Assembly: GCA_016875535.1 (NCBI GenBank)
Contig: VGPF01000009.1
Location: 1 to 55,820 of the forward strand
Reading direction: 5' to 3'
Origin: Chloroflexota bacterium
GTDB taxonomy: Bacteria; Chloroflexota; Dehalococcoidia; SHYB01
DNA: 55,820 bases
Part shown: positions 40,403 through 46,071 of the stretch, one piece after another
Position numbering within the stretch: position 1 is the first letter of the stretch
How the letters are laid out: each line of letters starts with the position of its first letter
The notes under the pieces: generated by a model
What the model was told of the DNA's origin: nothing
What the model saw: only the letters and a program-made list of their open reading frames with translations
Databases searched by the model: none
Program-made: the position numbers and the translations under genes

Positions 40403-40436
40403 AACGGGGCCGCTCATTCGAGCGGCCCCGTTTGTT
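40403..40436. terminator. Bidirectional terminator after aceBA
   Basis: A 13-bp perfect stem (AACGGGGCCGCTC, 40403-40415, with 40420-40432) around ATTC, flanked by A-rich and T-rich bases. It separates aceA from the convergent HD-domain gene. Confidence 0.85.
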
Positions 40437-40458: not shown

Positions 40459-41139
40459 CTAGTATTGCAGGTCTAAGTGCGGCCTGCCCCACAAGTGCTT
40501 CCGAGTGAGCGAGAGGCTGCAGGCATCTATGAAGGCGTTGACCACTTCCGGGTCGTAGAGGCGTCCGCGCTCGGTGCGCAGGGTCTCCAGCGCCTTATTG
40601 ATCGGTTGCTCCGCCCCAGGCGCCGAACTGCCGATCATGCGGTCGAAGGCATCCACCACGGCGATGATGCGCGCCGCCAGGGGGATGGACTCTCCCCGCA
40701 GCCCGGCGGGGACGCCGCTGCCGTCCCAGTATTCGTGGTGAAAGAGCACCATCGGCATGATGGGCGTCAGCCACGGGAGGCTGGAGACGATTTTGGCGGC
40801 CCGCAGGCAGTGTGCTCCGTTGTCCGTGGGGCGCGGGGGATGCCCCGCCGGGCGGGCGGGAGCGGCTTCGCCGCCGATGATGCGGCCGATGTCATGCAGA
40901 TAGCCTGCGACCTCAAGCTGGTCAAGGTCGCCGCCGCGCATGCCTATCACCTCTCCCGTCTCCCGCGCCATCTTGCCCACGCGCAGCGAATGCGCCCACA
41001 GGAGCGGGTCCGCAAGGCCGGACATGCTCTCCAACAGCGGCATGACCTCATGCAGGCGAGCCCGCAAGCTCCCCGAATGCGACGGGGACTCCTCACGGAT
41101 GTACGAAAGATTTTCGGTCGGACGGACGAGTGTGGTCAT
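40459..41139 (-). CDS. HD-GYP-like phosphohydrolase, variant GVP motif
   Basis: A 226-residue HD-superfamily protein. H50 (AHSLRVGKMA), H82-D83 (YLHDIGRI), H110, and H134-H135 (LFHHEYWDG) supply the metal-binding residues, and LAARIIAVVDAFDRM follows. The signature loop is DGSGVPAGLRGE, Gly-Val-Pro in place of Gly-Tyr-Pro. HD-GYP proteins hydrolyse cyclic-di-GMP, and the variant may be altered in that activity. No receiver domain is attached. It starts 20 bases downstream of the response regulator, so it may be an output of the adjacent signalling cassette. Confidence 0.82.
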   Translation of the reverse strand: MTTLVRPTENLSYIREESPSHSGSLRARLHEVMPLLESMSGLADPLLWAHSLRVGKMARETGEVIGMRGGDLDQLEVAGYLHDIGRIIGGEAAPARPAGHPPRPTDNGAHCLRAAKIVSSLPWLTPIMPMVLFHHEYWDGSGVPAGLRGESIPLAARIIAVVDAFDRMIGSSAPGAEQPINKALETLRTERGRLYDPEVVNAFIDACSLSLTRKHLWGRPHLDLQY

Positions 41140-41159
41140 TGCACTTCCTCCCCGGGAAG

Positions 41160-41861
41160 TTAATGAACGTCCTTCAGCAATCCGAGCTCTATGGCCTTGG
41201 CGACGGCCTGTGCCCGGCTCGGCTCCCCGAGCTTCAACAAGATATGTCCTACATGGGTGTTCACGGTCTTCACGGAAAGGTCGAAGTGCTCCGCTATGGC
41301 GCGGTCCGTGGCGCCCTGCTGGATCATCTCCAGGATCTCAAGTTCTCTGGCGGTGAGGTCTCGCAGCGGCGGGGTGGAGGTCTCTTCCTTCGGCTGATCG
41401 GCCAGGAAGTCTATGACCCGCGCACTCATAAGATCCGGCAGCGCCGCCTTGCCTTCGTGGACCGTATGGATGGCTTTTAAGAGCTCCTCGCCCGGCGCAT
41501 CCTTCAGGAGATAGCCTCGCGCGCCCGCCTTCACCATCGCCTTGACGTACTGGTCATAGTCGAATGCGGTGAGCGCCAGGCACTTGACTTCCGGGTGCTC
41601 CTTGCGCAGTGCCTTCACCAGGTCTATGCCGCTCCCGCCTTTAAGGCGGATATCAACCACGGCGACGTCCGGGCGGGTCTCCGCGATGACGGCAATCGCC
41701 TCCTGCACCGTCTCCGCCTCGCCGATGACCTGGATGGACGGGTCCTGGGTCAAGAGGTACTTGGTGCCCTCCCGGAACATCTGGTGATCGTCCACAAGGA
41801 CAACCCTAACCGTTCCGCCGGGTGCGTGCTCTCGCACATCGGATATAGACAGCGTCGCCAC
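41160..41861 (-). CDS. NarL/LuxR-type response regulator (intact)
   Basis: A 233-residue two-domain regulator. The receiver has the acidic pair D24-D25 (VVLVDDHQMFREG), phospho-acceptor D70 (VAVVDIRLKGGSG) and the Lys in YLLKDAPG. The C-terminal LuxR helix-turn-helix reads LTARELEILEMIQQGATDRAIAEHFDLSVKTVNTHVGHILLKL. GTG 41861 is chosen because an AAGGAGGGGG ribosome site lies seven bases before it. The ATG at 41885 would overlap that site. It lies 140 bases after the amber-interrupted regulator of the ComP-like kinase and could take its place. Confidence 0.93.
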   Translation of the reverse strand: MATLSISDVREHAPGGTVRVVLVDDHQMFREGTKYLLTQDPSIQVIGEAETVQEAIAVIAETRPDVAVVDIRLKGGSGIDLVKALRKEHPEVKCLALTAFDYDQYVKAMVKAGARGYLLKDAPGEELLKAIHTVHEGKAALPDLMSARVIDFLADQPKEETSTPPLRDLTARELEILEMIQQGATDRAIAEHFDLSVKTVNTHVGHILLKLGEPSRAQAVAKAIELGLLKDVH

Positions 41862-42001
41862 GTTGAATCCCCCTCCTTGCAGCATTCGCGTGAACTGTGT
41901 GCAGGCCAGGCTACCAGGGTTGGAAGTATAAAAAATCCGTAAGAAAAGCCTAGGTACGTACGTACAGGGTGAAGGGTTGGTAATCGGCAGTCCTTTGCCG
42001 A

Positions 42002-42661
42002 TTACTGCTTTTTGATATAGCCGTGCTCGATGGCGATGCGCACGGCCTCCGCCCGCGTGGTGGCTCCCAGCTTTGAAAAGATGTTCGCCACGTGGGACTC
42101 GGCGGTGCGCTGGGAGATTCCCAGGCGCTCCGCGATCTCCTGATTGCGCCGCCCCTGGTAGAGCAGCTCCAGCACTTCGATCTCCCGAATCGTCAGGTCG
42201 TCCGGGGTACGCGGGGAGTCTCGTCGCTCCCGGCTGAGGCTGTCCAAGACGGAGGCCGCGATCCGCCCCGGAAGAACCCCGTGCCCTTCGTAGACATCAT
42301 GGACCGCCTTGATGAGTTGCTCAGGCGGCGTATCTTTCAGGAGGTAGCCGCGCACGCCCGCTCTCGCCAGGGCGTCCACGTACTGCTCGAAGTCGTGGGC
42401 CGTCAGCACCAGCACCCGCGCCGTGGATCCCTTGCGCATCAGCGCCCTGGCCACATCTATCCCGCTGCCGTTCTTGAGCCGGATATCCAGAATCACCACG
42501 TCGGGGGCCAGCTCATCGGTCAGGCGCAAGGCCTCTTCCGCCGTCTCGGCCTCGCCCACCACCTAGATCCCTGGGTCTGCCTCAAGCAGCGCCTTGGTCC
42601 CAACGCGCACGAGGGCGTGGTCTTCCACCAGGAGGACGCGGATAGTGTGCCCTGTCGTCAT
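42002..42661 (-). pseudogene. ComA-like response regulator interrupted by amber codon 33
   Basis: From ATG 42661, which overlaps the kinase stop by four bases, the frame encodes a 219-residue NarL/LuxR regulator. It begins TIRVLLVEDHALVRVGTKALLEADPGI, then has TAG at 42565-42563 (codon 33), then VVGEAETAEEALRL. Phospho-acceptor D59 (VVILDIRLKNGSG), YLLKDTP and the LuxR helix-turn-helix (LTIREIEVLELLYQGRRNQEIAERLGISQRTAESHV) are intact. GAG to TAG by one substitution explains it. Restart at GTG 42562 would lack the acidic pocket and first beta-strand. Either recent decay, a sequencing error, or suppression. Confidence 0.82.
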
Positions 42662-44970
42662 ACGCTCCGTGCCGCCTCGGGGAGGGCAGAGTCCGCCTCC
42701 ACCGGGACGCTGATGGTAATCGTGGCGCCTTGGCCCGGCGCGCTCTCGATGGCAAGCGTCCCGCCCGCGTGGCGGACCCGCTCGCGCATGCCCAGGAGCC
42801 CAAGGTGGCCGTCCTTGGCCGCCCGCTCCCGTTCAGCCGCGCCGAAGCCTCTGCCGTTGTCCATGATCGAGAGGATGGCCTTACCTTGGGCGATTCTAAG
42901 GGATATCGTCGCCTGTGTCGCCCCTGAGTGCTTCACCACGTTGTTCAGGGCCTCCTGGGCGCAGCGGTAGATGGCCAACTCCGAGGCCGCGGGGAGGCGC
43001 GTCTCATCGGGAAAGCCGTCCAGGTCCATGGTGATGTGTACCGCCTCTTTTCCGGGCAGGTTCCGTGCCAGCCAGTCTATCGCATACCGCAGGCCCAGGT
43101 CGTCCAGCATCGGCGGGCGGAGGGCGTTGGTGATGGCGCGCAGCTCCGTGACGAGGGATTTGCCGACGTCAATCACCTTGTCAGAAGGCACGGCGGTTCT
43201 GGACAGGAAGATGGCCTGTTGCAACGGGCCGTCATGGAGGTCTATGGCCAGGCGCGCCCGCTCTTCTTCCTGGGCGGTCATCAGCCGCCCGTTCAAGTCG
43301 CGCAGCTCATCGCTCAGCTTGGAGCGCGCCAGCAGCATGCTGACCAGCGTGGCCATCGGCTCCATTAGCTTCACATCGTCATCCCGAAAGGCCTCCCCTC
43401 CCGATTTAGGCCCGAGAAGGAGCGCCGTGTCTTCATCCAGCACAAAGGCGAGGACCGGGTCGCTTTCCAACTGCCGGATAGCGCTGCCTCGAGAAGGCAG
43501 AAAGCCCGGACTGTCATAGGCGCGTCGCAGGCGCTGGGCGGACATGCCGCCCGAGATGATTTCGGAGGCCGATTGAGACCTGCCGGTGACGACGAGATAC
43601 CCCTCGAGTCTGGCGATCGCCTTCACTTGCTCCAACATGGAGACGACGACGTCTTTGGGCTGCCGCGCCCGCTGGGCCTCTTTGGACAACTCCACGATAG
43701 CCTCCCGGTAATCGAAGACATCCCGGTAGACGTAGGTGTCCGCCAGACGCTGCAAGATGGGGCGCAGGTAGGCGAAGGCGAGGGCGCCGAAGACAACGGC
43801 CCCGGAGGTGATGAGGAGGTCGTTGCGGCGCGATTCAAAGAGGTCCGGCTTGATGGTGATGCCGATCCCCACGAGCAGGATCATAACGACGAGCAACAGG
43901 CCGGAGAGGATGACGTACACGGCGCCGCGCTGGACCAGCCTCCGGATGCCGAGCATCTGGTATTGGAAGATGGAGTAGGCGAAGCCGGTGGGTATTGCCA
44001 GGAGACCGAGTGCGGCGATATCAGGGCGAACGATCTCATCCACGCCGCTGGCGATGGGAAGAAAGACGAGCAGGAGGAGCGGGATGAGTCCTAAAATTGT
44101 TGCAGACGAGACGATGGCCACAACAGAGCGCTCATTATGAGTGCTTGCGCGCCGATAGCCTGTTATGAGCGCGATGATTGAGAAGATGATGAGGAGGATG
44201 AAAGCTATCGAGATACAGGCCTGAAGCCAGGGATATATGTTCGGTTGTGCCGCTGCGGTAAGGATATATATTGCAGTAAGGCCGATACCCGACCAAAGGG
44301 TGATGCTCCGAACCTTTTCGACTAAGCGCGGAGTCCCAGGTGTGAGGCTGGTGTAGAAGGCGAATAGGGCCCAGGGCGAGAACCAGACCAAGGGGAATTG
44401 GAATCCTAGCGCCCAAACCGTGAGTGCTCCCTCAGATGCCGGGACCAACGCAAGGGAGCAGCCTGCGGCGAGTCCCATAAGCCAAAAACTTCGAGCCGAC
44501 TTGAGATCCGGACGTCTCCACAGCACTAAACTCCCGAACGTGACAAAAACAAGACCCAGTAAAGGGAGGGTGTACCGTGAGGCGCCCTCAACTGAACGCC
44601 CGGCCTCGGCTCTGATGGGTGCTTCACTGCCTGAGGCCCCAGGCCGGACCACGCTACGCGGCCGTTCCGTGCCTCCACCCGTTATCCGGAGGACCGGGTC
44701 GCCTACTCGGAGGCCTGCATCCCAACCTGCGCCCGCGGGCATGACCCAGGAGACGCAGTACGGAGCGGCCTCACACTCCTCCAATCGTATTTGCAGCAAA
44801 GGAGAGTCAGTGACAGAACGCTGAGCAAAGAAGAAGAGGCTCGCAAAGAGCAGAACACTGGAGAGGACTAAACCGCGGAGGAGGGGGAGGTTAGGGGAGG
44901 GTTGGCTTGAGGTTCGCGAGGATCCTTCGGCTTGTCCTCGAGAAGTGAGCGAAGCAACCGGGTCTGACAT
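42658..44970 (-). CDS. ComP-like membrane sensor histidine kinase
   Basis: A 770-residue sensor with the architecture of Bacillus ComP. It has an N-terminal membrane span (about 33-50), an extracytoplasmic PDZ-like segment (YCVSWVMPAGAGWDAGLRVGDPVLRI, about 70-96) and roughly eight further spans up to about residue 410. A cytoplasmic GAF-like region follows. The HisKA_3 dimerisation helix has phospho-acceptor H579 (AQEEERARLAIDLHDGPLQQ), and the HATPase domain has ALNNVVKHSGA, DNGRGF and GHLGLLGMRERV. It would sense an external signal, presumably the product of the two genes upstream. ATG 44970 overlaps the synthase gene by 103 bases, and no later in-frame ATG, GTG or TTG precedes the first span. 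Confidence 0.9.
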   Translation of the reverse strand: MSDPVASLTSRGQAEGSSRTSSQPSPNLPLLRGLVLSSVLLFASLFFFAQRSVTDSPLLQIRLEECEAAPYCVSWVMPAGAGWDAGLRVGDPVLRITGGGTERPRSVVRPGASGSEAPIRAEAGRSVEGASRYTLPLLGLVFVTFGSLVLWRRPDLKSARSFWLMGLAAGCSLALVPASEGALTVWALGFQFPLVWFSPWALFAFYTSLTPGTPRLVEKVRSITLWSGIGLTAIYILTAAAQPNIYPWLQACISIAFILLIIFSIIALITGYRRASTHNERSVVAIVSSATILGLIPLLLLVFLPIASGVDEIVRPDIAALGLLAIPTGFAYSIFQYQMLGIRRLVQRGAVYVILSGLLLVVMILLVGIGITIKPDLFESRRNDLLITSGAVVFGALAFAYLRPILQRLADTYVYRDVFDYREAIVELSKEAQRARQPKDVVVSMLEQVKAIARLEGYLVVTGRSQSASEIISGGMSAQRLRRAYDSPGFLPSRGSAIRQLESDPVLAFVLDEDTALLLGPKSGGEAFRDDDVKLMEPMATLVSMLLARSKLSDELRDLNGRLMTAQEEERARLAIDLHDGPLQQAIFLSRTAVPSDKVIDVGKSLVTELRAITNALRPPMLDDLGLRYAIDWLARNLPGKEAVHITMDLDGFPDETRLPAASELAIYRCAQEALNNVVKHSGATQATISLRIAQGKAILSIMDNGRGFGAAERERAAKDGHLGLLGMRERVRHAGGTLAIESAPGQGATITISVPVEADSALPEAARSV

Positions 44971-45854
44971 CCGTGCTTTTCCAATCGTTCCAGGATTGCT
45001 TCGGCCCTCATTCTATACCAGTGAGCAAGCGTGAGGGTGAACCGAATCGCCCCGGCCGTCTCGATTGCAATGCGCACCTGCATCTCGCCCGTTGGATCCA
45101 TTCCCCCGGCGTTGAACGCCGAGCGGCAGGCATCCAGTTCTGGGCTGTCACCCTTGGCGTGCAGGAAATAGGCGATCGGCACGGTTTTCTTTTTGAGGGC
45201 GATGTCGCTGGTGCCTGGTGAGAGTATCGAAGCGTCTGACGCATCGTCGAGCAGTTGGCTATACGTTCCAAAGTGCAGGCCGAATGCCGCTAGCTCTGAA
45301 GTTACTGAGGTGCTTGCCCCTGCAGCCAGCGCGATCGCTTTGCCGATGGCCCCCGCCTTTGCTTCGGTCATCTCTTTCGCCTCCTCCAGCGATGGCGTCT
45401 CATTGCCCTGGAGGTCAAGATCCGCCTGTTGCCCGGAGCAAGCGGTCACGAAACTGGAGTAGACCTGACTCCAATCTACTTGGAGACCACTCGCTGCTCT
45501 GGATGCTTCGAAGAGATGGGAGGCAAGGAACAGAAGCGCCGGGCCGATTTGCTGATCGGCGTTCGTGCTGTGCCTATCGTGGTCTGCTAATGCATCAAAG
45601 ACATGGCTGGCCGATACGATGACTTCGGTCGCTGCGGCGGCTTTGGCACCAACCTGAAGCTGCTTCCCTCCTCCAGCAAAAAACGCGCCCAACGCGATCT
45701 GCGTTGGGCGTAAGGGCGTCCTTTCGTGGAGCGGGTGCGGGAACTTTTTAAGGGTTGTCTCTATGCGCTCTCGAAAGGAGGGCGCGACTGCGCCGCTGGC
45801 CAGGGCTTCAAGGATCGAGGTTTTGACCAGCAGCGCAGTCTCATGAGCGAGCAT
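44868..45854 (-). CDS. ComQ-like polyprenyl-synthase-family protein
   Basis: A 328-residue all-helical isoprenyl-diphosphate-synthase relative. The second Asp-rich motif is classical (LLDDASD, D203-D207). The first is degenerate, HVFDALADHD (D87, D91, D93). GGGKQLQVG near residue 61 lies where the Arg/Lys diphosphate contacts are expected. This half-degenerate pattern is what ComQ shows, the enzyme that prenylates a Trp of the ComX pheromone. ATG 45854 follows the stop of the small peptide gene with no gap (TAAATG), and the 3' end overlaps the ComP-like kinase gene. A plain prenyl synthase is the alternative, but context favours ComQ. Confidence 0.8.
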   Translation of the reverse strand: MLAHETALLVKTSILEALASGAVAPSFRERIETTLKKFPHPLHERTPLRPTQIALGAFFAGGGKQLQVGAKAAAATEVIVSASHVFDALADHDRHSTNADQQIGPALLFLASHLFEASRAASGLQVDWSQVYSSFVTACSGQQADLDLQGNETPSLEEAKEMTEAKAGAIGKAIALAAGASTSVTSELAAFGLHFGTYSQLLDDASDASILSPGTSDIALKKKTVPIAYFLHAKGDSPELDACRSAFNAGGMDPTGEMQVRIAIETAGAIRFTLTLAHWYRMRAEAILERLEKHGCQTRLLRSLLEDKPKDPREPQANPPLTSPSSAV

Positions 45855-45995
45855 TTAGATCCAACCGGCCTCTTGGGCGCGCAGGACGGTCCCGCTGACT
45901 TCGGTCGGGCGTGCGGCGGCGCCGGCCAGGGCGAGCGTGGCTTCCTTCTTCCCGATCAGCATCTCGAGCGCTGCGCGAACTGCATCCTTCTGCAT
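45855..45995 (-). CDS. ComX-like pre-pheromone peptide (46 aa)
   Basis: A 46-residue peptide starting MQKDAVRAALEMLIGKK and ending LRAQEAGWI. ATG 45995 has GGGAG five bases upstream. Its stop abuts the synthase start exactly. The size, an N-terminal amphipathic helix, and a single Trp at the penultimate position are what a ComX precursor needs, since ComX is cut to a short C-terminal peptide and prenylated on Trp. Overall sequence similarity to Bacillus ComX is not expected, as ComX is hypervariable. Identity is inferred from context and the Trp. A longer frame from 46043 would overlap the upstream repeats. Confidence 0.65.
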   Translation of the reverse strand: MQKDAVRAALEMLIGKKEATLALAGAAARPTEVSGTVLRAQEAGWI

Positions 45996-46029
45996 GGTGT
46001 CTCCCGGACATGTGTATTTCCCGCTCTGC

Positions 46030-46071
46030 GGGATGGCACCCATTCAACCAGGGGGATGGCACCCACTCAAC
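46030..46071. repeat. Two 19-bp direct repeats upstream of the peptide gene
   Basis: GGGATGGCACCCATTCAAC (46030-46048) and GGGATGGCACCCACTCAAC (46053-46071) differ at one base and repeat with a 23-bp period, about two helical turns. They end 34 bases before the peptide ATG and could be tandem binding sites for the cassette's response regulator. The rest of the 240-base spacer 45996-46235 shows no assigned feature. Confidence 0.7.

Follow-up and report, generated by a model that had tools for sequence, protein, structure and literature searches.

A candidate tryptophan prenyltransferase, its putative peptide substrate and a ComP-like receptor encoded together in Chloroflexota

In the literature that we searched, prenylation of tryptophan (Trp) in peptides and ComP-type sensing have been described from Bacillales, some Clostridiales and Paenibacillus. 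A 2014 census recorded comQXPA-like loci in Firmicutes only (PMC4008528), and a later study reported a ComP–ComA pair, without the full pathway, in Chloroflexi (PMC8895600). A second system, the PalXQ cluster, comes from Paenibacillus; in vitro, PalQ prenylates the C-terminal Trp of the precursor PalX (PMC10853753). PalQ requires its target Trp to be the last residue, while ComQ acts on a Trp inside the peptide (PMC10853753, PMC13290415). Cassettes of this kind in Chloroflexota did not come up in our literature search, which had most subscription journals and bioRxiv preprints outside its coverage. Here we analyse a cassette on a 55,820-nucleotide (nt) stretch of DNA from a Chloroflexota bacterium (contig VGPF01000009.1; the whole stretch is called the window), which a preliminary description had presented as a ComQXPA-like quorum-sensing locus. 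We consider it probable that the cassette is an auto-signalling system working like ComQXPA or PalXQ. Its genes are the following.

45855 to 45995, minus strand: putative pheromone precursor of 46 residues with a penultimate Trp (..QEAGWI*), with a Shine–Dalgarno-like GGGAG, coding-like codons, and a position and Trp common to relatives.
44868 to 45854, minus strand: candidate tryptophan prenyltransferase of 328 residues, similar to trans-isoprenyl diphosphate synthases (trans-IDS-like, ComQ/PalQ type), assigned from PF00348, tree, BLASTP, hhalign and AlphaFold2 (AF2) model.
42658 to 44970, minus strand: ComP-like receptor histidine kinase of 770 residues, with a first transmembrane helix (TM1), a PDZ-like loop, more transmembrane helices, a HisKA_3-type H-box and HATPase_c.
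42002 to 42661, minus strand: NarL/LuxR response regulator (RR1), with a 4-bp overlap with the kinase and an in-frame TAG at codon 33.
41160 to 41885, minus strand: NarL/LuxR response regulator (RR2), intact, 241 residues, grouping with weak support with the divergently transcribed second regulators of four related loci, L035–L038.
40459 to 41139, minus strand: HD-GYP-like protein of 226 residues (HDIGRI...HHEYWDGSGVP; HD_5 at 90.6 bits), a possible cyclic di-GMP (c-di-GMP) phosphodiesterase output.

All six reading frames are present on the minus strand at the positions proposed beforehand, bearing out a tightly packed, single-strand cassette of peptide, synthase, kinase, two regulators and HD-GYP-like protein. 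The order X-Q-P-A, with the peptide first, was likewise confirmed, and the peptide comes first at every Chloroflexota locus seen. The peptide open reading frame (ORF; MQKDAVRAALEMLIGKKEATLALAGAAARPTEVSGTVLRAQEAGWI) ends in AGWI*, has the ribosome-binding-like GGGAG 5 nt ahead of its ATG, and its stop directly abuts the synthase ATG (45854). Codon log-likelihood ratios mark its frame as coding-like: it scores +16.0, the remaining two sense frames score −15.6 and −9.6, and upstream intergenic DNA scores −10.8 to −19.5. Its codon usage matches that of the neighbouring genes. The 46-codon peptide with its penultimate Trp stands as described. Its reading as a ComX-family pheromone does not: the peptide had no Pfam match at E values up to 10, whereas genuine ComX controls scored 25.6–72.4 bits against the ComX family PF05952. 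It was also without a match to the NHLP leader.

The synthase matches PF00348 at 36.5 bits (cut-off 27) and shares with ordinary isoprenyl diphosphate synthases of that family the fold, the Asp-rich motifs, and the GQ..D and KKxTLP-type motifs. It has D87/D91 in the first Asp-rich motif and Q200 with D203/D204/D207 at the second (QLLDDASD). The residues named for PalQ (D89/D93, Q197 and D200/D204; PMC10853753) correspond to D87/D91, Q200 and D203/D207 of the window enzyme, a correspondence without discriminating power because ordinary synthases share most of these positions. The AF2 model (predicted local distance difference test score, pLDDT, 88.8) has the isoprenyl-synthase fold; the best Protein Data Bank matches in Foldseek, which cannot tell prenyltransferases from chain-elongating synthases, are geranylgeranyl diphosphate (GGPP) synthases, with Ord1 at ranks 42 and 46. 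Profile libraries label the enzyme polyprenyl synthetase only, and true ComQ sequences are labelled likewise.

We built a maximum-likelihood tree of 25 ordinary synthases of the phylum (two from the window genome), 21 peptide-linked Chloroflexota enzymes and four genuine ComQ; the ComQXPA reference sequences were DNA-derived and came from plasmid records of Bacillaceae with annotated genes. The ordinary synthases fall on one side of a branch supported at 100/100, the peptide-linked enzymes and ComQ on the other, and the window enzyme groups with those of L035–L038 at 99/97. The description of the enzyme as ComQ-like holds in that it stands apart from ordinary synthases, but the peptide-linked side comprises several lineages, and ComQ, one of them, is not the sister of the window enzyme. 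Direct comparisons also connect the two: BLASTP of the window enzyme against one ComQ gave E = 1e-10, and hhalign of the enzyme family profile against ComQ gave E = 3e-37. In the group B enzymes of related loci, the second motif is degenerate (QxxND) and ComQ-like. The other weak synthase of the window genome (L004) had no peptide and no receptor at its locus. The ComQ query sequence used for searching was kept out of the tree. ComQ-like matches also appeared in CP065518.1 and CP031730.1 (about 70.7 kb, labelled Stenotrophomonas rhizophila), at 31% identity to the ComQ query and with a score near that of the Lysinibacillus plasmid match; these two records may be mislabelled or contaminated.

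The kinase likewise has kin in the ComQXPA system. The sensor halves (TM1, PDZ-like loop and further spans) of 12 Chloroflexota receptors match two genuine ComP proteins with hhalign E = 1.4e-18 over 395 columns, so that the membrane part, PDZ-like loop included, has ComP relatives as had been suggested. ComP and many of the Chloroflexota receptors have Pfam PDZ matches at equivalent positions, and those of L039, L150 and L151 exceed the cut-off. Of the ComP architecture claimed for the window kinase, HATPase_c (54.3 bits), the HisKA_3-type H-box (ERARLAIDLHD) and the ComP profile match hold up. Pfam HisKA_3 and PDZ_6 are below cut-off, leaving the H-box and profile match to carry the assignment, and hydropathy gives 7 membrane spans against the roughly nine claimed and the 9–10 mostly found in relatives and true ComP. 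The AlphaFold model of the receptor contains about ten long helices (pLDDT 72); in Foldseek its sensor returned chance-level matches to seven-transmembrane proteins only (best E = 6e-3), which carry no information on the ligand. The window genome holds a single strong sensor match.

We then surveyed a sample of 393 genomes of Dehalococcoidia, the class to which the window belongs. A loose-threshold search of the phylum with the synthase alignment drowned in ordinary synthases and was replaced by a larger profile with a score gap. The divergent enzyme type occurs in 16 of the 393 genomes (at least 274 bits; next match 234) and a ComP-like sensor at E = 1e-100 or better in 18. All 16 enzyme-bearing genomes have the sensor in the next gene (in five of them, G084, G199, G210, G228 and G262, the adjacent sensors were outside the query profile), and just 2 of the other 377 have a sensor without the enzyme, a co-occurrence that is nearly one-to-one across the class. 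In the first of these two (G188; L207:6951-8569), a transposase-like ORF splits the cassette, leaving an intact precursor (..GPMGGWF), a synthase cut to 214 residues and the receptor. The second (G280; L208:3525-5930) has an orphan ComP-like receptor with no synthase or Trp peptide nearby, possibly an eavesdropper or a remnant. One family with such cassettes has complete single-contig genomes.

Relatives of the window synthase at 24–31% identity lie in recurring Chloroflexota cassettes with the order small ORF, synthase, large membrane receptor. A Trp near the C terminus of the small ORF was found at all 20 Chloroflexota loci examined, the window counted; L045, cut by a contig end, was left out. 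The small ORFs end in ..AQWT (L035), ..LPWV (L036), ..EAWF (L037), ..AQWS (L038), ..MGGW (L039), ..LSNWL (L040), ..DWWWS (L041), ..SPEWT (L042), ..QWWA (L052), ..DGWWA (L058), ..PWWAPEP (L064), ..GTWS (L073), ..LFWL (L148), ..AGWL (L149), ..AGWF (L150) and ..GGWF (L154). Most relatives, like the window, have one residue after the Trp, and L039 ends in it; in L151–L153, from another Chloroflexota class, the Trp lies 11–12 residues before the end of a third precursor type. Trp falls within the last five residues at 17 of 20 loci, compared with 11.9% of 3547 background ORFs (p = 1.6e-13, a value that is too optimistic because a Trp filter helped to choose the ORF at some loci and the loci share ancestry). 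Three checks are independent of the filter and support the small gene: leaders place the group B precursors in the NHLP clan, as for PalX, the small ORF of a held-out locus, G262, ends in ..ILYWL, and none of 16 ordinary-synthase loci had a Trp-ending upstream ORF. A small gene with a C-terminal Trp, whose absence the preliminary description had named as one of three possible refutations, is present at related loci, and the other two refuting outcomes likewise did not occur. Two precursor pairs are under purifying selection (dN/dS, the ratio of nonsynonymous to synonymous substitution rates, 0.15 and 0.23).

These data bear on two readings in which the peptide is not the substrate. If the enzyme were an ordinary isoprenyl diphosphate synthase beside a two-component system by chance and the small ORF spurious, the polyprenyl synthetase labels and the GGPP synthase matches would be as observed; the 100/100 split in the tree, the 16/16 adjacency to one sensor type and the Trp peptide at 20/20 against 0/16 loci speak against this reading, which we regard as very improbable. 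We give marginally less credence still to the idea that the enzyme prenylates free Trp or another small molecule as the signal, with the small protein as an accessory. The structural matches do include Ord1, which has this fold and farnesylates free Trp (PMC13290415), although it is not the best of them, and this idea leaves the retention of a C-terminal Trp in otherwise diverse small proteins unexplained.

The precursors themselves raise a further alternative. By their leaders, group B precursors are placed in the NHLP clan (NF038399, up to 45.6 bits with a cut-off of 40; one precursor exceeds the cut-off and most others fall below it), and NHLP leaders are typical of ribosomally synthesized and post-translationally modified peptides (RiPPs). 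The product of enzyme and peptide might then be a prenylated RiPP serving chiefly some other purpose, such as an antimicrobial one, and the receptor might sense it for immunity or production control and not as a population signal; the PalX/PalQ cluster, which includes a histidine kinase, was described as a RiPP locus, and the available part of that report does not state a role for the product. However, the constant partner in the cassettes examined is the receptor, and no gene for immunity, export or further modification was seen to recur in them. We consider this alternative unlikely.

Compared feature by feature, the window cassette has on one side the four roles of ComQXPA in one operon, an enzyme on the same side of the tree as ComQ, a Trp near the peptide C terminus, a receptor with a PDZ-like loop, many spans and HisKA_3/HATPase, and a NarL-type regulator, although RR1, the one next to the kinase, has the TAG and it is RR2 that is intact. 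It differs from ComQXPA in that its peptide is outside PF05952, its order is X-Q-P-A rather than comQ-comX-comP-comA, its enzyme keeps the second Asp-rich motif that ComQ is without, and it has two NarL regulators (one broken), an extra HD gene and a host in Chloroflexota. With PalX/PalQ/PalP of Paenibacillus alvei it shares a histidine kinase, a C-terminal-Trp precursor and a trans-IDS-like Trp prenyltransferase (here a candidate) in one cluster, and PalX shares its NHLP leader with group B Chloroflexota precursors. Unlike PalX, which must carry its Trp at the very end for PalQ, the window peptide has no detectable NHLP leader and a penultimate Trp, and NarL regulators adjoin the window kinase. 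From ordinary synthases the enzyme differs in its separate clade, its altered first motif, and the adjoining peptide and receptor. As a parallel, PalXQ comes no less close than ComQXPA. Because the cassette departs from ComQXPA in its precursor family (PF05952), gene order and retention of the second motif, and from PalXQ in the NHLP leader and the position of the Trp, we treat it as a ComQXPA/PalXQ-like variant and a member of neither family.

Because the enzyme is kin to ComQ and probably to PalQ, Trp prenylation, release and receptor sensing provide the best account of the cassette. We propose that the small gene would encode the precursor, and that the trans-IDS-like enzyme would prenylate the Trp next to its C terminus, probably with geranyl or farnesyl. 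After cleavage, the lipidated C-terminal fragment would exit the cell, and the receptor kinase specified by the next gene would detect it through its PDZ-loop/multi-span domain and phosphorylate the NarL-type regulators. Several observations weigh against this account. The Trp of the window peptide has an Ile after it, and residues past the Trp abolish PalQ activity. The first motif of the enzyme is DALAD, without the second Asp (as in its four closest relatives), and its branch (2.17) is the longest on the Trp side of the tree. Homology of the peptide to the group A precursors is undetectable (E = 5.8 against the L035–L038 profile, not significant), and no second copy of the cassette was found in the genus or family of the window, leaving no close relative in which to follow peptide conservation. 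The optimism of the Trp p value and the stop codon in RR1 point the same way. What the computation itself establishes is the set of genes and their order, the relationship of enzyme and sensor to ComQ and ComP, their joint occurrence across the class and the C-terminal Trp of the preceding small gene; prenylation, prenyl length, cleavage, export, ligand–receptor pairing, target genes and a role for the HD protein are inferred.

RR1 is present and overlaps the kinase by four bases as described, but it is interrupted by the TAG at codon 33 (42565-42563); the second NarL/LuxR regulator, RR2, is full length, in agreement with its description as intact. We rejected recoding of TAG as the cause, as TAG ends 19 of the 40 long ORFs in the window and is an ordinary stop there; the codon in RR1 is therefore a nonsense mutation or a sequence error. 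Unless it is the latter, the kinase would act through RR2. This defect admits the possibility that the window copy is a decaying cassette, of which RR1, the peptide ORF and the enzyme with its long branch would be remnants. The RR1 stop, the enzyme branch, the absence of a relative in genus or family and the clearly broken sister case in L207 would all fit. Yet full-length frames with intact key motifs are found for the enzyme, kinase, RR2 and HD protein, the codon use of the peptide is normal, and a single stop codon may be an assembly error; we judge decay to be rather improbable.

In the regulator tree, RR2 groups with weak support (82/76) with the divergent upstream regulators of L035–L038, and RR1 belongs to the larger group, supported at 97/95, in which they lie. 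Each of those four loci has its second NarL regulator divergently upstream, and the grouping of RR2 with them suggests that a two-regulator layout may be ancestral to this group.

Across the related cassettes the sensor is joined to different outputs. It occurs with a HisKA_3-type kinase and NarL regulators in the window, L035–L038, L151–L153 and L058; with a HisKA kinase in L040, L042, L064 and L073; and with a hybrid kinase carrying a receiver in L148, L149, L150 and L154. In three loci (L039:6460-8868, L041:9505-11751 and L045:787-3150) it is fused to an HD-GYP-type domain, and no histidine kinase domain was detected. The HD-GYP-like protein of the window has the HD...HHEYWDGSGVP motif, but an HD-type output at the window is not supported in the form first put forward; it is in L039, L041 and L045 that sensor and HD-GYP-type domain are one protein.

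Two further features, both stems, were mapped in the cassette region.

40403 to 40432, no strand given: 13-pair stem with a T-rich tail, from a stem search, a likely bidirectional terminator closing the cassette.
41974 to 42005, minus strand: 10-pair stem-loop immediately 3′ of the RR1 stop, ahead of RR2 (fold −15.2 kcal/mol, z −4.8).

Inside the synthase ORF, about 145 nt past its start, a 10-pair stem is followed by TTTTTT (45710-45686, minus strand; fold z −4.6), a terminator-like arrangement that could reduce transcription of the synthase relative to the peptide. Between RR1 and RR2 lies TACGTACGTACC (41965-41950, minus strand), possibly a NarL-type site for RR2–HD; ACGTACGTACC recurs upstream of the L036 peptide. 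A candidate operator, the motif AGGGGTTTYCACGTA, is shared by L035, L037 and L038, where it lies about 115 nt upstream of the start codon of the peptide; in L035 and L038 a second, inverted copy is found still farther from that codon, in the stretch that separates the peptide from the divergent regulator. Upstream of the window peptide, the best match to this motif was no better than chance.

Beyond the window, we see roughly an even chance that Chloroflexota have their own ancient family of Trp-prenylated peptide signalling, with one sensor and interchangeable outputs (NarL-coupled kinase, HisKA kinase, hybrid kinase–receiver and direct HD-GYP-type c-di-GMP phosphodiesterase). Such a family would form a bridge between ComX and NHLP/PalX precursors and would suggest a wider system that has Bacillus ComQXPA as one of its branches. 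If so, peptide quorum sensing would extend to Chloroflexota, a phylum for which none was found in the literature searched, and ComX would be linked to NHLP RiPP precursors. The HD-GYP-type receptors would possibly couple a prenylated peptide to c-di-GMP breakdown directly.

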